A DNA stretch of 33,341 nt from positions 1 to 33,341 of the forward strand of contig CAISYL010000266.1 in the NCBI GenBank assembly GCA_903889655.1, in the 5' to 3' direction. Positions 24,481-32,085 of this stretch are shown piece by piece. Within the stretch, counting starts at the first letter, position 1; each line of letters begins with the position of its first letter. Below the pieces are notes generated by a model. That model did not search any database, was not told the origin of the DNA, and worked only from the letters and a program-made list of their open reading frames with translations. A program made the translations under genes and the position numbers. Source of the DNA: an uncultured Alphaproteobacteria bacterium. Lineage in GTDB: Bacteria; Pseudomonadota; Alphaproteobacteria; Parvibaculales; Parvibaculaceae.

Positions 24481-24624
24481 ATGAACAGCGCCATCCGCCT
24501 CCTCGTTCTCATTGCCGTGTTTGCGGTGGTGATCGTGGGGGGACTTATCTATCTCGGCCAATCCGTCGAGCCGTCGGTTCAGCCTGTCGAAAAGGTTTTG
24601 CCGGATGGCCAGTTCCCGCGTTGA
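24481..24624 (+). CDS. 47-residue single-span membrane protein
   Basis: Very small protein that would be easily missed. MNSAIRLLVLIAVFAVVIVGGLIYLGQ is a near-perfect transmembrane helix, followed by a short Pro/Val-rich tail (SVEPSVQPVEKVLPDGQFPR), probably periplasmic. GAAGGA lies eight bases before the ATG, which is strong support. Its stop codon lies inside the likely ribosome binding site (TTGAGGG) of the next gene, so the two are probably translationally coupled. It is the first gene of an operon with a large exported protein and xerD. The function is unknown; it could be an anchor or partner for the following protein. Confidence 0.82.
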   Translation: MNSAIRLLVLIAVFAVVIVGGLIYLGQSVEPSVQPVEKVLPDGQFPR

Positions 24625-24634
24625 GGGCGCCGAC

Positions 24635-26551
24635 GTGAAGCGCCGCGTCGGCGGTCCGCGTGCCAGGGCCGGTACGGCCGGGCTTGTTGCGCTTTTGCTG
24701 ATGTCGCCCGCTTTGGCGGACACGCTCGGTACCATTTCCGTCTCGCCGCCGCCCCAGGATGAGGGCGCGGCCGCACAGCCTTCGGCCGCTCCGCAGGGCA
24801 ATACGCCTCAAGCCGCTGCCCCGCAGGGCGCGGCTCCGCAGAGCATCGTGCCGCAGGGTTTCGGTGCGACCAGCGCCGCCCCGGCGGGGGCGGCCTTCCC
24901 GGGCGGCGCCGATCCGTCGGGCCAGGGTGCACCGCTGACGGTGAAGAACATTCCCGGCGCCGGCGGTTCGGGCATCACCGTTTCGACGCTGAGCGGTGTC
25001 GACGCGTCCGCCGCCGGGCTTCTCGGTCAGGGCGACGGCGGCTTCGGCCCCGACATGTGGCGCGGCGCGACGCGCAGCGACGTCGAACGCTATCTGGCGC
25101 AGTTGCCCGTCGTGACCGGTTCGCCGGTCATGAACGATCTTTCGCGTCGCCTGTTGCTCACCGCCGCGCAGCCCCCGGAGGGCCAGCAGAGCGGCACGTC
25201 GCTTCTTGGCGTCAGGCTCGAGCGGTTGACGATGGCGGGCCACGCCGACCTCGCCACGGATCTCGCGAAAGCGGCGCAGGCCGACAAGGGGCCGGCCGTC
25301 GCCATGGCGCGTGCCCGGGCCGCGCTTGCAGGCGGCAATCACGAGGAAGCCTGCGATGCGCTTGCCGACATTCCGACCGGCAGCGATCCCGCGCATGACG
25401 ACATGGCGGCATTCAGCATCAAGCTTTCGGCCTTCTGCCAGGTTCTCTCGGGCAAAAAGAGCGAGGCCAATCTGACGCTCGATCTCGCGCGCGAGGAAGG
25501 GCTCGACGATCCGATGTTCTATTCGCTCGTCGCGGAGGCGACCGACGGGCTCAAGCTCAAGGCCGAAGATCCGAAGCAACTCGATATTCTCGACGTGGCG
25601 CTTTATCGCCTCGCCCATCGCGAATTGCCGAAGAATGCCGGCCAGATCGCAACCGTCGCCGTGGTGCAGACGCTGGCGCGCGACACGACATTGCCGCCGG
25701 AGACGCGCATCGTCGCCGGCGAGCGCGCCGCGATGCTCGATCTCATCAAGGCGGACGAACTTGCCAAGCTCTATGCGCTGCCGAGCTTCGCACAGGCCGA
25801 TTTCGACGGGCTGAAGACGGGGACTTTTCCGGATTCGGCAGCGATGCGCCGTGCCTTGCTCTTTCAGGCCATCAATGCCGAGGTCCTGCCGACCGATCGC
25901 GTCAATCTCATCAAGCTGATGCTGTCGACGGGCGAAAGTGCCGGGCTCTATCTTTCGACGGTCGAGGTGCTGCTGCCTACGCTTGTACAGTTGACGCCGT
26001 CGCCGACGCTGCGCAATCTTGCACCTGCAGCGGTGCGGGCCTTCCTGCTGGTGGATGACAGGCCGCATGCGCAGCAGTGGTATGCTTTGCTTGCGCCTCA
26101 GGGTCAGGGTATCGGGCGCGATGCGCGCGAACTCGGGGCGTTGATGCGGATCAGCGATCCGCAAGGCCCCGGCGGCAATGGCGACCAGATCGCGGCCGAC
26201 ATTCTTGCCGATCTGCGTTCCGGCGTTTCGTCCACGCGGATTTTCGCAACGCAGGAAGCCCTTTTGTTGCAGGCTTTGGGGTATCCGCTGTCGCAGGATG
26301 TGCTCAATGCCATAACGGCGGTAGCGCCGACGGATTTGATGAATCAGTTGCAGAATGCCGGCCAGAAGGGCGTGGTCGGCGAAGTTGTGTTGCTTTCTCT
26401 AGTGAGTATCGGGCCTGGGGGGCCGGATGGCGCAGATCCTCATGTGACTGCGCAAGCCGTTTCAAGTCTCAGAGCGGTTCATCTCGATGCCGAGGCCCGG
26501 CGCCTCGCCACCGAAGCTCTAATGGGACGCAGTCATGCCGAACCCGGGTGA
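24635..26551 (+). CDS. Large exported alphaproteobacterial protein of unknown function
   Basis: A 638-residue protein with an N-terminal signal peptide (RAGTAGLVALLLMSPALADT). After it comes a low-complexity region (about residues 40-100) of repeated A-P-Q-G units (AAPQGNTPQAAAPQGAAPQ, IVPQGF), then a helix-rich body from residue 130 to the end, rich in Ala and Leu with many helix-turn-helix pairs (ADLATDLAKAAQADKGPAVAMARARAALAGGNHEEACDAL) that resemble TPR/SEL1-like scaffolds. I start at GTG 24635, with GAGGG seven bases upstream. An ATG at 24605 is also in frame and would overlap the 47-residue gene by 20 bp. It lies 6 bp before xerD. Related exported proteins beside xerD occur in alphaproteobacteria, but I know of no assigned role. 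Confidence 0.82.
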   Translation: MKRRVGGPRARAGTAGLVALLLMSPALADTLGTISVSPPPQDEGAAAQPSAAPQGNTPQAAAPQGAAPQSIVPQGFGATSAAPAGAAFPGGADPSGQGAPLTVKNIPGAGGSGITVSTLSGVDASAAGLLGQGDGGFGPDMWRGATRSDVERYLAQLPVVTGSPVMNDLSRRLLLTAAQPPEGQQSGTSLLGVRLERLTMAGHADLATDLAKAAQADKGPAVAMARARAALAGGNHEEACDALADIPTGSDPAHDDMAAFSIKLSAFCQVLSGKKSEANLTLDLAREEGLDDPMFYSLVAEATDGLKLKAEDPKQLDILDVALYRLAHRELPKNAGQIATVAVVQTLARDTTLPPETRIVAGERAAMLDLIKADELAKLYALPSFAQADFDGLKTGTFPDSAAMRRALLFQAINAEVLPTDRVNLIKLMLSTGESAGLYLSTVEVLLPTLVQLTPSPTLRNLAPAAVRAFLLVDDRPHAQQWYALLAPQGQGIGRDARELGALMRISDPQGPGGNGDQIAADILADLRSGVSSTRIFATQEALLLQALGYPLSQDVLNAITAVAPTDLMNQLQNAGQKGVVGEVVLLSLVSIGPGGPDGADPHVTAQAVSSLRAVHLDAEARRLATEALMGRSHAEPG

Positions 26552-26557
26552 GTTCCC

Positions 26558-27532
26558 ATGTCCAACGACCCTATCTCGACGGAAACGAATGGACGGCATC
26601 ACGTCGATGCCTTTCTTGAAATGCTCAGTGCCGAGCGGGGCGCAGCGCGTAATACGCTCGACGCCTATGCGAGGGATCTGAAGGATTTCGCGGCCTTTCT
26701 CTCGTCGCGAAGTCGGGACGTCGCGGCCGCGCGGACGATGGATGTACGCGATTATCTCGAAGGCCTGTCGACACAGGGACTCTCCGCCTCGACGGCGGCG
26801 CGCCGCCTCTCCGCCATCCGCCAATTTCACGGCTTTCTCTACGCCGACGGCATAAGACCCGACGATCCCTGCGGCGCGATCGAGGGGCCCCGTCGCGCGC
26901 GACCCTTGCCGAAGACGCTTACCGTCGAGGAAGTCGACGCGCTCTTGCGTGCCGCCCGTCTCGTCGAGGATGGGCGATCGCAGGAGGAAGCGGTGCGTGC
27001 GTATAAACGCGCGCGTCTCGTCTGCCTGATGGAAGTCCTCTATGCGACGGGTCTGCGTGTTTCCGAACTCGTCGGCCTGCCGCTGGCGGCGGCGAAGGGC
27101 GACGGACGGTTCCTTACCATTTCGGGCAAGGGCGGCCGCGAGCGGCTGGTGCCACTTTCCGAAACCGCGCGGCTCGCCATCGACGAATATCTGCCGTTGC
27201 GCGTGATGCGGCTCGGCGATTCCGTTTCGCCCTGGCTCTTTCCGTCGCGCGGACGTCAGGGTCATCTGACGCGTCACCGTTTCGCGCAGCTGCTGAAGGA
27301 TCTGTCGATCTCGGCGAAACTCGATCCGAACCGCGTGTCGCCGCACACGCTGCGTCATGCCTTCGCGAGTCATCTGCTCGCCAATGGCGCGGACCTTCGG
27401 GCCGTGCAGCAGATGCTCGGCCACGCCGATATTTCGACCACACAGATTTATACGCATGTGCTCGACGGCCGGCTGAAGCAGCTCGTCGAGGATCATCATC
27501 CCCTGGCGAAGAAGGACAGCGCGTCGTCCTGA
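26558..27532 (+). CDS. xerD: Tyrosine recombinase XerD
   Basis: Site-specific tyrosine recombinase (324 aa) that with XerC resolves chromosome dimers at dif during division. Seen: N-terminal SAM-like core-binding domain (10-110) with ERGAARNTLDAYARDL, and the catalytic domain with all active residues: Arg167 (TGLRVSEL), Lys191 (SGKGGRER), His263 and Arg266 (HTLRHAFASHLL), His289 (MLGHADIS) and nucleophile Tyr298. A short charged insert (about 137-151) precedes the first catalytic helix. It is the last gene of the operon with the 47-residue and the large exported proteins. It ends 1 bp before the convergent sigma-factor stop. The dif site itself is not seen here. Being a complete housekeeping recombinase, it is not evidence of an integrated element. 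Confidence 0.96.
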   Translation: MSNDPISTETNGRHHVDAFLEMLSAERGAARNTLDAYARDLKDFAAFLSSRSRDVAAARTMDVRDYLEGLSTQGLSASTAARRLSAIRQFHGFLYADGIRPDDPCGAIEGPRRARPLPKTLTVEEVDALLRAARLVEDGRSQEEAVRAYKRARLVCLMEVLYATGLRVSELVGLPLAAAKGDGRFLTISGKGGRERLVPLSETARLAIDEYLPLRVMRLGDSVSPWLFPSRGRQGHLTRHRFAQLLKDLSISAKLDPNRVSPHTLRHAFASHLLANGADLRAVQQMLGHADISTTQIYTHVLDGRLKQLVEDHHPLAKKDSASS

Positions 27533-27533
27533 T

Positions 27534-28466
27534 TCAGTCGATGATCGGAATGCCCAGAAGCTCCGCTGCATGGTGCAGCTTGTCGGGGTTTCGCATCACG
27601 TAGATTCCGGAGATGCGGCCGTCGTCGAGATCGAAGCTCACGACGGAGTGGAGCCGGCCGAACGCCGTGAGCGCGAAGCCGGGCCTTCCATTGATCGTGA
27701 TGGCTTCGATGCCATGAGGCGCCCCGATTTTCTTCAGGATGCCAAGGAAGAAACGCGTGATGCGATCGGCGCCGTAAATCGGATTGAGTGCCGCCGCTGC
27801 CTTGCCGCCGCCGTCGGAATAGAGGATGGCATCGTCGCGCAGCGAGGCGAGGAGGGCATTCGGGTCTTCCGTCGCAAGCGCAGTCGCAAACGCCGCCGCG
27901 AGCCTTGCATGATCGGCGCGGCTTGCTTCGAAGCGCGGACGCTCCTCCGTCACGCGGCGGCGGGCGCGGCTGACGATCTGGCGACAGGCGGCTTCCGATT
28001 TCCCAAGAATTGCCGAGAGATCGTCATAGCCATAGTCGAAGGCTTCGTGCAGCAGAAAAGCCGTGCGCTCTTCGGGCGCCAGCCGTTCCAGCATGTGCAG
28101 CAACGCGATCGAGATATCGTCGGCAAGCGAAAGTCTTTCCTCCGCCGTAGGGGCAGGCTCCGCTCCCGCCGCCTCGACGATCGGTTCCGGCAGCCAGGGC
28201 CCGACATATGTTTCGCGCCGTGCGCGCAGGCGGCGCAGATGGTCGATACCGAGGCGGCTTGCCGTGGTGACGAGCCAGGCCTCGGGCGACCTGATGTCCT
28301 GCGCGTCGACGCCGCTCCAGCGGAGCCATGTTTCCTGCACGACGTCTTCGGCATCGCTCACCGTACCGAGGAGCCGGTAGGCGACGGCGAAGACGCGCGC
28401 GCGATGGCGCGTGAAGATTGTTTCCGCCGTTTCCTGTCCGGTGCCTGGCTGCGCGGTTCCCATCAT
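27534..28466 (-). CDS. sigJ: ECF41-type RNA polymerase sigma factor (SigJ-like) with fused SnoaL-like domain
   Basis: Extracytoplasmic-function sigma factor of 310 aa, far longer than ordinary ECFs. Domains in order: sigma2 (about 15-80, EDVVQETWLRW), sigma4 (about 115-172, YDDLSAILGKSEAACRQIVSRARRR), and a C-terminal SnoaL/NTF2-like domain (180-310). It has all three ECF41 hallmarks known to me: WLPEP in the linker (91-95), DGGGK (218-222) and NPDKL near the end (293-297). In this group the C-terminal domain replaces an anti-sigma factor, and none is encoded nearby. I start at ATG 28466 with GAGGA upstream; an ATG at 28490 lies within a palindrome. It lies 30 bp after the CMD-family gene and is predicted to be co-transcribed with it. 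Confidence 0.94.
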   Translation of the reverse strand: MMGTAQPGTGQETAETIFTRHRARVFAVAYRLLGTVSDAEDVVQETWLRWSGVDAQDIRSPEAWLVTTASRLGIDHLRRLRARRETYVGPWLPEPIVEAAGAEPAPTAEERLSLADDISIALLHMLERLAPEERTAFLLHEAFDYGYDDLSAILGKSEAACRQIVSRARRRVTEERPRFEASRADHARLAAAFATALATEDPNALLASLRDDAILYSDGGGKAAAALNPIYGADRITRFFLGILKKIGAPHGIEAITINGRPGFALTAFGRLHSVVSFDLDDGRISGIYVMRNPDKLHHAAELLGIPIID

Positions 28467-28479
28467 GACATCCTCATCC

Positions 28480-28498
28480 GATCGGATCATATCCGATC
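28480..28498. repeat. 19-bp inverted repeat between the CMD-family gene and sigJ
   Basis: GATCGGAT-CAT-ATCCGATC: 8-bp perfect arms around a 3-base centre. It spans the CMD stop codon and ends 14 bp before the sigJ start and its ribosome binding site. It could be a short RNA hairpin limiting sigJ translation, or an operator. Confidence 0.6.
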
Positions 28499-29051
28499 AG
28501 GCAGCCTGAGGCTTCTGGAGTTCGGCGCGCAGGGTTTCGTGACCGATGGTGACGCGACTGCAGGCCTGTCCATAGCCCATGACGCGCTTCACGGTCGGAA
28601 AGACGCGGGTGCTGGCGATCGCCAGCGCCAGTTCCGCGATGGCGGCCTTGCCCCACCAGCTTTCGATCAATGGCCGAAGCTCCTCGCTACGGACGTCGCG
28701 GGCGGCGATCGCTTCGGCGAATTCAAAGGTCGTTCGTATGCGTTCGTCCATCGCGGCGAGATCGCGCGTAATGGCGGCGCGCAGCAGGTTCGCCGGAACG
28801 CCGGCGGCGCTCGCCAGATTGACAACGGTCTGGAGGCAGGGACCGCAATCCTCTGCATGAACGGCGGCGATAGACGCGACCGCCCGCGCTTCGACCGGCA
28901 GGCGCTTGCGGTAGCGGCTCATCGGGATGAAAAGCGCAAACCGCCAGAAGCCGCCGGGTGCCGCGACATAGAGATCGCGGAGAAAATCGGTCGGCTCGCC
29001 GGTGATCTCTTCCTGCCGGCGAAGGCTCCGTTCGACAAAGGCTTTGAGCAT
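28497..29051 (-). CDS. Carboxymuconolactone decarboxylase/AhpD-family protein with CGPC motif
   Basis: A 184-residue helical protein of the CMD/AhpD superfamily. The redox motif is CGPC (Cys69 and Cys72, in HAEDCGPCLQTVVNLA). The typical AhpD layout is C-x-x-C followed by a His four residues later; here that position is Val76, and the inner His is also absent, so it is not a standard alkylhydroperoxidase. A CGPC disulfide like that of thioredoxin suggests a thiol-redox role. Genes of this superfamily are the usual partners of ECF41 sigma factors and their expected regulon. AAAGGA lies seven bases before the ATG. It lies between the membrane protein gene (25 bp upstream) and sigJ. The substrate is unknown. 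Confidence 0.87.
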   Translation of the reverse strand: MLKAFVERSLRRQEEITGEPTDFLRDLYVAAPGGFWRFALFIPMSRYRKRLPVEARAVASIAAVHAEDCGPCLQTVVNLASAAGVPANLLRAAITRDLAAMDERIRTTFEFAEAIAARDVRSEELRPLIESWWGKAAIAELALAIASTRVFPTVKRVMGYGQACSRVTIGHETLRAELQKPQAA

Positions 29052-29076
29052 GATCTTGTCCTTTCTCTTGCTATGT

Positions 29077-29502
29077 TCAGGCGCAGTCGTTCCGCACCCA
29101 CCAGGTGAGAAGCGCCACGACCAATACGGGCAGGAAGACGCCGGGGGCGTCGATCAGCAGATGATCGGGCTCCAAGCGCCCTGCGGCGACGTCCCAGAGA
29201 TGAAGCAGCGCATGAAGGCCCAGATAGAGCGTGACGACCGCGAGAAGCGGCAGCGCATGTCCGAGCCAGCGTGCCGCGGCGGCCGTCGCCAGGGCGAGCG
29301 TCAGATAGGCGACGCCGATATCGCGGACGAAATGCGGATTGAAGGGACCGGTATCCGGAACGCCGGCGACGGCTCCGTACCAGCCGAGCGGATCGGCCAG
29401 CATATAGAGCGCATTGGCCAGAAAGGCTGCGGCCACGATGGCGAGGATCGCCCGCTTCCGGCCGATTTGCCTTATGCCGATGGTTGTATGGGTCAGGGAC
29501 AT
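29077..29502 (-). CDS. Four-helix membrane protein, first gene of the ECF41 operon
   Basis: A 141-residue inner-membrane protein of unknown family with four predicted hydrophobic helices (about residues 18-38, 58-78, 82-104, 118-134). Polar, probably functional motifs lie at or in the membrane: FNPHFVRDIGVAYL before helix 2 and LGLHALLHLWD in helix 3, giving several His and Asp residues that could bind a metal or heme. It ends WWVRNDCA. The start has an excellent GAGGAGG upstream, so an upstream ATG in the same frame at 29787 is not used. It is the first gene after the predicted ECF41 promoter and is followed by the CMD-family gene 25 bp on. Its role is not known to me. Confidence 0.83.
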   Translation of the reverse strand: MSLTHTTIGIRQIGRKRAILAIVAAAFLANALYMLADPLGWYGAVAGVPDTGPFNPHFVRDIGVAYLTLALATAAAARWLGHALPLLAVVTLYLGLHALLHLWDVAAGRLEPDHLLIDAPGVFLPVLVVALLTWWVRNDCA

Positions 29503-29576
29503 CCGGTTCCTCCTCGCCCGATCCGGGCGGCTTTTCCGACGACCCGGCGTCAATCGGCGCCGGGATTCCCTGACAA

Positions 29577-29603
29577 GACGAATGTCGGCCCTCATCTGTG
29601 ACA
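29577..29603 (-). promoter_or_regulatory. Predicted ECF41 sigma factor promoter
   Basis: On the minus strand: TGTCACA (29597-29603), 16-bp spacer, CGTC (29577-29580). This is the -35/-10 pair reported for ECF41 sigma factors, at the right spacing, about 75 bp before the membrane protein start and in the correct direction. The only other TGTCACA I noticed (24297) lacks the -10. Confidence 0.75.
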
Positions 29604-29662
29604 AGGGCCATCCGCCGTTTACCAAGGGGATCGGAGGGAGTGCCGAAGAGGGACTGGAGCGG

Positions 29663-29691
29663 TTGACAAGGGGCCCAGCCCAAGCCAGTGT
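29663..29691 (+). promoter_or_regulatory. Tentative promoter of accA
   Basis: A perfect TTGACA followed after 17 bp by CAGTGT, which is a weak -10. It lies about 85 bp before the accA start, in the gap opposite the ECF41 promoter. Confidence 0.38.
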
Positions 29692-29777
29692 GCCGCGCAA
29701 ATCCTGACAAAAGGATCCCTGCCCAGGGTGGCCTCCCGGGCGTTTCCAAGGCGGACAGACGGGACTTCCGGGGCGCG

Positions 29778-30737
29778 ATGCACACATATCTCGACTTCGA
29801 GAAGCCGATTGCAGAACTTGAGGGCAAGGTCCAGGAGCTCAGGCTGCTGGCCCAGGACGACCCGACGGTGAGCATCTCCGACGAAGTGTCCAAGCTCGAG
29901 CAGAAGGCTGCACAGCTTCTCCAGGAAACCTATTCGGCCCTCACGCCCTGGCAGAAGCTGCAGGTGGCGCGTCATCCGCGCCGGCCGCACTTCGTCGACT
30001 ATATCGAGCGGTTGATCGAGGATTTCACGCCGCTGGCCGGCGACCGCCTTTTTGGCGAGGATGCGGCCATCATGGGCGGGCTCGGACGTTTTCGCGGCCG
30101 CTCCGTCGTCGTGATCGGCCACGAGAAGGGTTCCGACACGCAAGGCCGGATGAAGCATAATTTCGGCCTCGCCCGGCCCGAAGGCTATCGCAAGGCGATC
30201 CGGCTGATGAAGCTCGCCGAGCGTTTCGGGATTCCCGTCGTCACGCTCGTCGATACGCAAGGCGCCTATCCGGGTTCGGACAGCGAGGAGCGCGGCGTCG
30301 CCGAGGCGATCGCCCGCTCGACGGACTGTTGCCTGTCGCTCATGGTGCCGCTCATTTCGGTCATCATCGGCGAAGGGGGATCGGGCGGCGCGGTTGCGCT
30401 CGCCTCCGCCAACCGCATCCTGATGCTTGAGCATTCCGTTTACAGCGTGATCTCGCCAGAAGGTGCGGCCTCGATCCTGTGGCGCGATTCGGCAAAGGCC
30501 AAGGATGCCGCGACGGCGATGAAGATTACCGCGCAGAACCTGCATCAGCTCGGCGTGATCGATCGTGTACTGCCGGAACCCATCGGCGGTGCGCATCGCG
30601 AACGCGCGCAGATGATCAAGGAAACGGGCGATGCGATCGAGGAAGAGCTGCGCGGCCTCGAAAAGCTCGATGGCGAGACCCTGAAGCGTTTGCGCCGCGA
30701 GAAATTCCTGGCCATGGGGCGCGTTGGCGTTCTCTGA
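29778..30737 (+). CDS. accA: Acetyl-CoA carboxylase carboxyltransferase subunit alpha
   Basis: Alpha subunit of the carboxyltransferase of acetyl-CoA carboxylase (319 aa), which with AccD transfers the carboxyl group from biotin to acetyl-CoA to make malonyl-CoA, the first step of fatty acid synthesis. Seen: [18 protein letters not shown] at the N-terminus, [41 protein letters not shown] and the oxyanion region [15 protein letters not shown]. The ATG at 29778 is chosen because the family N-terminus starts there, not at the upstream ATG at 29688. Shine-Dalgarno pairing is weak (GGGG). In many relatives accA directly follows xerD; here the ECF41 module lies between. Confidence 0.97.
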
Positions 30738-30825: not shown

Positions 30826-31359
30826 ATGCCGTCCGCGCAGCAAAAACTCACGAGTGACGGCGCCAGACGCTTTTTCGACTACTGGGACGCCATTCGCGGC
30901 GACGATCTGGTTCCGGATCGTAAATCATTCGATCCCATTGCCATTCGCGAGTTGATGCCGGCAGTCACGATCCTCGAAATCTGGTCGCCGGAGCGCATCG
31001 TTCCGCGGCTGGCCGGTACGGGCGTCTGTGATGGCATGGGGCTCGATCCAACGGGACGGAACTGGCTCGACCTGCAACGCCCGGAGCTTCGAGAGGGATA
31101 TGCCCGGCGCGTCACGACACAGGCAAATCATCCCTGCGGTCGACGCAGCATATTGCGAACACGTAATGTCCGGGGCGCCGTTACACGCGCCGAAGTCATC
31201 GCATTACCGATGACCCACGCCCTGTCGGGACACAAGATGCTCGTCTCGTTTTTCGCGACGCTCGCTATCCTCGGATACGAGGATGGCGGCTATCAGGTGC
31301 TCGACTTCGAAGAGACGCACTGGATCGACATCGGCGCGGGGGTTCCCGATTGGACCTAA
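30826..31359 (+). CDS. PAS_5 (DUF1457) domain protein, copy 1
   Basis: Single-domain protein of 177 aa of the PAS_5/DUF1457 family, common in alphaproteobacteria and usually without an attached output domain. Seen: RFFDYWDAIRGDDLVPDRKSFDP, AIRELMPAVTILEIW, PRLAGTGVCDGMGLDPTGRNW and LPMTHALSGHKMLVSFF, all in the family order. PAS folds bind small ligands or cofactors, but the ligand for this family is not known. AGGGAA precedes the ATG. It lies 88 bp after accA; I see no terminator between, so read-through is possible. It is the tandem paralogue of the gene at 31549, roughly half identical by eye with no gaps from residue 15 on. Confidence 0.88.
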   Translation: MPSAQQKLTSDGARRFFDYWDAIRGDDLVPDRKSFDPIAIRELMPAVTILEIWSPERIVPRLAGTGVCDGMGLDPTGRNWLDLQRPELREGYARRVTTQANHPCGRRSILRTRNVRGAVTRAEVIALPMTHALSGHKMLVSFFATLAILGYEDGGYQVLDFEETHWIDIGAGVPDWT

Positions 31360-31548: not shown

Positions 31549-32085
31549 ATGCAACCATTGATGCGACCAAGCCTTCAGACTGACGGCGCCGCGCGCTTCT
31601 TCGACTACTGGAACAGTCTGCCCAAGACTGATCTGGTGCCGGATCGTCATGCCTTCAGCCCGACAGCGATTCCGGATTTGATGCGGGCCGTGACGATCCT
31701 CGAAATATGGTCGCGCGCGCGTATCGAAATGCGGCTTGCGGGCACCGGCGTCTGCGATGTCATGGGGTTCGATCCCACGGGATGGAACATGCTCGCGCTT
31801 CAGCCGGCGGCGGTTCGGGTGCATTACCTGAAGCTGGTCGAGGAACAGGTGAAGCGTCCCTGCGGACGGCGCAGCGTGCTCAATGCACGACAGGCGGACG
31901 GCACCATCCTGCGCGCCGAAACGATCAGCCTGCCGATGCGGCACGCGCTGTCGGGGCACGACATGCTTCTTTCCTATTTCAATGCCATCGAAACGATTGG
32001 CTTCGGCGAGAACCGCTACCAGATTCTCGGCTACGAAGACACGGAGTGGATCGACGTCGGAGCGGGTACGCCCGACTGGAGTTAA
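31549..32085 (+). CDS. PAS_5 (DUF1457) domain protein, copy 2
   Basis: A 178-residue PAS_5 family protein and tandem duplicate of the gene at 30826. Shared blocks with no gaps: RFFDYW, LVPDR, AVTILEIW, RLAGTGVCD, DPTG, PCGRRS, ALSGH and WID-GAG-PDW. Differences cluster in the segment between residues 90 and 130 and in charged surface positions, as expected for divergence in ligand or partner. GGAGG lies four bases before the ATG. A 189-bp gap with a paired GTTGCAC repeat separates it from copy 1, so it may have its own control. The 3' end overlaps the convergent epoxide hydrolase gene by 4 bp. Confidence 0.88.
   Translation: MQPLMRPSLQTDGAARFFDYWNSLPKTDLVPDRHAFSPTAIPDLMRAVTILEIWSRARIEMRLAGTGVCDVMGFDPTGWNMLALQPAAVRVHYLKLVEEQVKRPCGRRSVLNARQADGTILRAETISLPMRHALSGHDMLLSYFNAIETIGFGENRYQILGYEDTEWIDVGAGTPDWS

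Follow-up and report, generated by a model that had tools for sequence, protein, structure and literature searches.

A putatively autoregulated ECF41 sigma factor operon headed by a membrane protein gene, and a probable second target in trans

The operon and its ECF41 sigma factor

The window that we analyzed (the whole 33,341-nucleotide stretch of DNA, from an uncultured member of the Parvibaculaceae) carries, in order on its minus strand, an ECF41-type promoter, a gene for a 4-TM membrane protein (gene 1), a gene for a protein of the AhpD/CMD fold (gene 2) and a gene for an ECF41 sigma factor of the SigJ type (gene 3; Table 1). The operon is flanked by a divergent accA and a convergent xerD-type recombinase gene. 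No known anti-sigma gene lies near it, the neighbors being the AhpD-like, 4-TM, accA and xerD-type genes, which agrees with the sequence-only reading. That reading also placed the three genes 25 to 30 bp apart in one direction. All three lie on the minus strand and the first gap is 25 bp, but the second depends on where the sigma gene begins, being 30 bp for the ATG at 28466 and 6 bp for 28490. The start at 28466 is preceded by the better ribosome site and agrees with most relatives, and the alignment of sigma relatives begins only at residue 9 or later in 22 of 25 (the broken gene of locus L021 left out). A simple scan of the minus strand over 27400-29900 found no terminator-like site. Two similar-looking tandem genes lie beside accA on the plus strand (30826-31359 and 31549-32085), each with a PAS_5 domain (58 and 59 bits), and a 648-aa reading frame with no Pfam match at 0.01 lies upstream of the xerD-type gene (24605-26551, plus strand).

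Table 1. Coordinates of the operon features in the window and of the stand-alone CMD gene
Feature	Position	Strand	Remarks
ECF41 -35 box TGTCACA	29597..29603	(-)	exact match; kept in relatives
ECF41 -10 box CGTC	29577..29580	(-)	exact match, spacer 16
-10 box to gene 1 ATG	29503..29576	(-)	74 nt; start site expected ~7 nt below box, then 5' UTR
Ribosome site GGAGG	29509..29513	(-)	from sequence; strong, before ATG at 29502
Gene 1	29077..29502	(-)	141 aa, 4-TM membrane protein; no Pfam match above cut-off
Gene 2	28497..29051	(-)	184 aa, AhpD/CMD-fold protein with CxxC
C69-G-P-C72 codons	28836..28847	(-)	CxxC invariant in 19/19 rows
Gene 3	27534..28490	(-)	318 aa, ECF41 sigma factor, SigJ type; alternative start 28466
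WLPEP, sigma2-sigma4 linker	28182..28196	(-)	from sequence; full motif YVGPWLPEP
C-terminal extension, SnoaL_2-like	27576..27902	(-)	weak SnoaL_2 match E 0.012, under cut-off; colinear with SigJ extension
DGGGK	27801..27815	(-)	invariant in 16 aligned rows, window's row included
NPDKL	27576..27590	(-)	NPDK invariant in 16 rows, L nearly so
Stand-alone CMD gene	G000:C208:1926-2408	minus	PF02627, 79 bits; another contig of own genome

Judged from its sequence, gene 3 is an ECF41 sigma factor, given that it scores above the cut-offs of two profiles (344 bits against 271 for NF007214, SigJ; 343 bits against 323 for TIGR02957) and that its residues 26-305 are colinear with Mycobacterium tuberculosis SigJ (5xe7; E 1.6e-53) through sigma2, the WLPEP linker, sigma4 and the extension. 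Pfam recognizes only the r2 and r4_2 regions (sigma2 and sigma4), which are followed by a C-terminal extension of ~100 aa. The features found here are those of the group: WLPEP in the linker, NPDKL, no adjacent anti-sigma gene, a linked CMD-fold gene and TGTCACA-N16-CGTC before the operon. The claim that WLPEP, DGGGK and NPDKL define ECF41 held in part. All three are present, and WLPEP (in the portions available of PMC3426412) and NPDKL with YVGPWLPEP (likewise of PMC7730460) are described as ECF41 motifs, but DGGGK has 0 occurrences in the text of PMC3426412, and SigJ, in a comparison of the proteins alone, reads DSNGK in its place and NPDKF for NPDKL. The ECF56 pair SigG1-RsfG, as described in part of PMC7730460, resembles our system in having a sigma factor with a SnoaL_2 extension and differs from it in lacking NPDKL and in having a separate antagonist.

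The protein encoded by gene 2 has a CMD score of 19.9 bits, below the Pfam cut-off of 23. Its structural model, made from an alignment of 19 rows (pLDDT 89), is predicted to have the AhpD fold, with Z scores of 15.9 to Bmp8 and 14.4 to AhpD, while rows other than AhpD, CMD and sestrin proteins scored below 5.5.

Promoter conservation and probable autoregulation

The minus strand upstream of gene 1 reads TGTCACAGATGAGGGCCGACATTCGTC at 29603-29577, an exact match to TGTCACA-N16-CGTC and identical to the published ECF41 motif in boxes and spacing, as the sequence-only reading had stated. This is the single match to TGTCACA-N16/17-CGTC in the whole window, against 0.04 expected per shuffled window. 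The whole-genome scan proposed in that reading returned 4 exact N16 sites and one N17 site, but its value is limited by the reversed motif, which also gave matches (1 for N16, 3 for N16/17). A motif this short, with 4 exact sites against 1 for the reversed control, leaves some room for the view that it is a fossil or a chance match and that a housekeeping promoter drives the operon. On these sequence data, the motif by itself does not decide promoter identity; conservation does. The two further exact N16 sites of the genome look like chance. The exact site in contig C142, which stands before a member of a paralogous family, was rejected as a target, being missing in 29 of the 30 homologs read; for the exact site in C103 and the N17 site in C110, the adjacent reading frames were inspected. 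The C142 protein is 98% identical to one of Parvibaculum sedimenti (G014), compared to 72% over the shared part for the gene-1 proteins, and transfer or contamination is possible in this draft with 3.67% estimated contamination. Among relatives, many other single matches lie inside reading frames, and a site common to G033 and G034 precedes a flavin monooxygenase-like gene in G034, a gene that was not found beside the G033 site.

Conservation was read in two sets that overlap in genomes, so that their counts are not additive. A scan of named genomes gave 117 gene-1 relatives, of which we read the best 80 (mostly Parvibaculum, Phenylobacterium, Caulobacter and Myxococcota/deltaproteobacteria; also Nevskia, Solimonas, Aquabacterium, Halioglobus and others). 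An ECF41 gene lies downstream of gene 1 in 54 of these 80, as a fragment only in P. sedimenti (locus L162), and a CMD gene lies between the two in 46 of the 54. The site stands directly upstream of gene 1 in 53 of the 54 (51 exact, 2 with one mismatch); the remaining locus, by elimination L201, has an exact site before a CMD gene that heads its operon one gene further up. One locus of the 80 (L178) has the sigma gene ahead of gene 1, and 25 have no sigma gene in the locus. Two of these 25 are on cut-off contigs and carry an exact site, while the other 23, mostly from other lineages (Myxococcota, "deltaproteobacteria") and in three cases with little sequence after the gene, have no site with fewer than three mismatches. 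The contrast of 53/54 with 0/23 gives a Fisher p of ~1e-18, a value that ignores shared ancestry and excludes L178 and the two cut loci.

The family set comprised 40 genomes, 32 of which encode gene 1 at E<=1e-3; 30 loci were read. Sigma gene and site occur together in 27 (24 exact, 3 with one mismatch); one further locus, truncated at the end of its contig, carries an exact site, and the two without a sigma gene have no site (4 mismatches). The sigma gene of L021 is broken, and the CMD gene is missing in L017, L018 and L021. By way of background, a site with one mismatch was found in 8 of 3861 random 260-bp stretches (spacer 16 only, exact-site places excluded). Conserved sites in relatives were counted with spacer 16, and spacers of 15 and 17 were also allowed only in the count for the stand-alone CMD gene described below.

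GTCACA and CGTC do not vary among the 53 sites, but the spacer drifts, except for a C at position 18 in 46 of them. An ECF41 promoter heading the operon is thus supported, because both boxes are conserved across species over a drifting spacer. The same conservation, which extends across families and classes, speaks against a fossil or chance match, and a simple consensus scan of 27400-29900 found no sigma-70-like promoter that might serve as a housekeeping one; we regard this explanation as very improbable. In the 5' UTR, the leader hairpin CCCGGCG...CGCCGGG was not taken as regulatory, because the folding energy of the leader equals that of shuffles (z -0.02) and because the distance from motif to likely start varies among relatives (~28 to 74 nt, depending on the start chosen).

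Deletion alleles bear on the earlier proposal that the sigma factor transcribes its own operon. Neither gene 1 nor gene 2 was found in G012 and G016, and G017 retains only a CMD remnant; each of these three genomes has an exact site before the sigma gene. Selection appears to have kept the promoter for the sigma gene even in the loss of genes 1 and 2. Autoregulation is well supported at the level of sequence, because three relatives that lost these genes keep both promoter and sigma gene; the conserved boxes point the same way. We propose that the sigma factor, an ECF41 protein to whose C-terminal end a regulatory domain is fused, would transcribe its own three genes, probably as one transcript, from the promoter at 29603-29577, in a positive feedback loop that would co-produce a membrane protein and a CxxC redox protein. 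The C-terminal domain would set the activity of the sigma factor, as shown in print for other ECF41 proteins. The reverse loss was also seen: the sigma gene is broken in P. sedimenti, and in G021 (71% complete) none was found beside the promoter or elsewhere in the genome. In L162 and L021 the opening portion of gene 1 has been fused by a deletion to the part of the sigma gene that encodes its C-terminal half, and the promoter is intact; the P. sedimenti genome has no stand-alone CMD gene at E<=1e-20.

A second conserved site before a stand-alone CMD gene

Across the genus, exact sites fall into two conserved classes, the operon and a stand-alone classical CMD (AhpD-type) gene, which in the genome of the window lies on another contig (Table 1). 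This gene is encoded in 24 of the 40 family genomes (E<=1e-20). The site stands upstream of it in 24/24, with spacer 16 (16 exact, 8 with one mismatch), and 22 of the 24 have no sigma gene in the fetched locus; in G013, which is a single contig, sigma and CMD genes are 1.7 Mb apart. An intact sigma gene is present in 24/24 genomes with the stand-alone gene compared to 9/16 without it (p 0.0006, confounded by completeness). Of those 16, nine have an intact sigma gene, one has a broken gene, and six have none that we could find. A missing AhpD2 or sigma gene may in some genomes reflect incompleteness, and the G027 locus is cut by a contig end.

We considered the possibility that the sigma factor controls its own operon only and that a different sigma factor with similar promoter preference acts at the distant CMD gene. 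Genome-wide work in Bacillus licheniformis, Rhodobacter sphaeroides and Sinorhizobium meliloti found a single target each (PMC3426412; PMC6180224 for S. meliloti), and the general conclusion in the available portions of PMC3426412 is that an ECF41 factor has one gene or operon as its target. The ECF41 search of the genome, which found one such gene at E<=1e-30 and no second, also leaves other sigma groups in play. Against this, all 24 homologs keep the two boxes of the distant site and their 16-bp spacing, eight of them with one mismatch, and TGTCACA is called specific for ECF41 in the same portions of PMC3426412. Moreover, in other alphaproteobacteria the same CMD type adjoins an ECF41 gene and is preceded by the same promoter. 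We read 48 copies of this CMD type of the 99 found in the wider class; 21 adjoin a sigma gene, and 19 of these 21 have the site (18/20 in one set, plus L450). We therefore rate the involvement of another sigma factor as unlikely. Among copies away from a sigma gene the site was found in 10/27, which weakens the idea that, across the class, CMD genes at a distance are as a rule under ECF41 control. In genomes with no such CMD gene seen at the sigma gene and one read elsewhere, the site (at most one mismatch) was present in 9/10, a subset assembled post hoc (G347, G204, G043, G240, G129, G408, G131, G331 and G223; exception G161); the sigma gene of G131 is split at contig ends, so that its locus is partly seen.

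The sigma regulon very probably has this second, distant target, to judge from the conserved site, and likely consists of two loci, contrary to the "single target gene or operon" described in print. Both promoters, which share boxes and spacing, would be used by RNA polymerase carrying this sigma factor, and the stand-alone gene would be transcribed in trans. Taking operon and distant gene together, we hold it very likely that the ECF41 sigma factor transcribes its own three-gene operon and, with high probability, the stand-alone AhpD-type gene. Our reading of the history is that the classical partner gene may have been uncoupled from the sigma gene with its promoter retained, and that a divergent CMD gene and the membrane protein gene replaced it in the operon.

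The closest known loci, RSP_0606-ecf41 of R. sphaeroides and SMb20029-rpoE9 of S. meliloti, are alike in having a CMD gene upstream of the sigma gene, an ECF41 promoter, a long C-terminal extension and no anti-sigma gene. They differ in that a single transcript is all that the sigma factor controls and in that the accessible portions of PMC3426412 and PMC6180224 mention no gene for a membrane protein, whereas here a 4-TM gene heads the operon and a second CMD gene has the promoter. A CMD, oxidoreductase or epimerase gene is linked to most ECF41 members in print. Wider ECF41 roles are not unheard of, given that RpoE10 of Azospirillum is cited in PMC12826043 for effects beyond a neighboring CMD gene, on lateral flagella; the role reported for it is flagellar. 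The available parts of PMC8999054, PMC8103513 and PMC9205884 held nothing further on ECF41 targets.

The membrane protein and its possible role

The model of the gene 1 product is a confident helical membrane protein (pLDDT 94.6), but searches of Pfam, NCBIfam and the PDB, the last by sequence and by fold, did not assign it firmly to any family. No DUF4345 match and no DoxX match is listed for the protein of the window; weak DUF4345 matches occur in 4 of 20 aligned gene-1 rows (E<=1), the best at 2.2e-5 and under the cut-off. The best Foldseek E-value was 1.1, and the best Z scores, 11.5 for a tetraspanin and 9.6 for NACHO/TMEM35A, are within the chance range for helical bundles. Such bundles dominate the fold search, and the lack of a DoxX-named entry among those listed excludes nothing. 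Residues N55, H57, D61, H97, H101 and D104 are conserved and, by helix order, would meet at one membrane face, which the positive-inside rule suggests is the outer one.

By gene content, gene 1 recurs in the ECF41 operons of three classes, the alpha-, beta- and gammaproteobacteria. Of the 385 genomes sampled from the class of the window, 64 yielded ECF41 genes, and of the 60 loci read (four family genomes and G131 are not among them) 11 have gene 1. On a tree of 113 sigma proteins the gene-1 label requires 11 changes, at least 8 by well-supported branches, compared to 36.9 when shuffled. The divergent CMD type is present in 57/64 tree rows with gene 1 and 12/49 without, in a sample that is enriched for gene 1, with many loci fetched by gene 1 and the divergent-CMD profile built from gene-1 loci. 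Copies of gene 1 apart from the sigma gene vary in their upstream site: exact in G161, one mismatch each in G264 and G347, two in G159 and G262, three in the second G129 copy and five in a G204 copy beside a CMD gene. The G161 copy (L428, G161:C16) is on a different contig from the only ECF41 gene found in that genome. A second membrane-protein paralog, 33-41% identical, occurs in 10 relatives (L415-L424); it was rejected as a sigma target, with 4-5 mismatches to the site in 10/10.

These patterns bear on whether gene 1, alone or with the CMD protein, could be the input of the switch, sensing a periplasmic redox signal and holding or releasing the sigma factor in a feedback circuit with its own sensor. 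Three observations would fit such a role: in 53 of 54 loci with a sigma gene it directly follows the promoter, its invariant His/Asp/Asn residues lie at one face by helix order, and the tree shows at least 8 gains or losses of its link with the sigma gene. However, 49 of the 60 class loci lack gene 1 (in one of these the sequence ends at the sigma gene), gene-1 homologs occur with no ECF41 gene nearby, sigma genes persist where gene 1 is lost, and co-expression of the CMD protein left ECF41 activity unchanged in print. A sensor role is, in our estimate, rather unlikely. Under the preferred reading of the gene products as output, they would act at the membrane against redox stress, of the thiol/peroxide or another kind. 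A broader version, which we offer tentatively and consider doubtful, concerns a large proteobacterial ECF41 branch. There the 4-TM protein, which has the invariant His/Asp face, may join its AhpD-type partner in a membrane redox unit that serves the sigma factor as output and as sensor alike and that the sigma factor coordinates with a second, dispersed AhpD gene; the 4-TM protein would then be the missing ECF41 signal input.

In the open literature on ECF41/SigJ, CMD and DUF4345, covered as titles, abstracts and passages, we found no description of gene 1 or of a distant CMD target. The new findings are modest but clear: the operon is headed by a recurrent gene for a membrane protein, and a second conserved promoter would be used in trans. 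ECF41 is a widespread sigma group that has no anti-sigma factor. The conserved membrane protein that accompanies it and the probable dispersed second target found by footprinting supply named genes for study and call into question the view of one ECF41 factor and one transcript.
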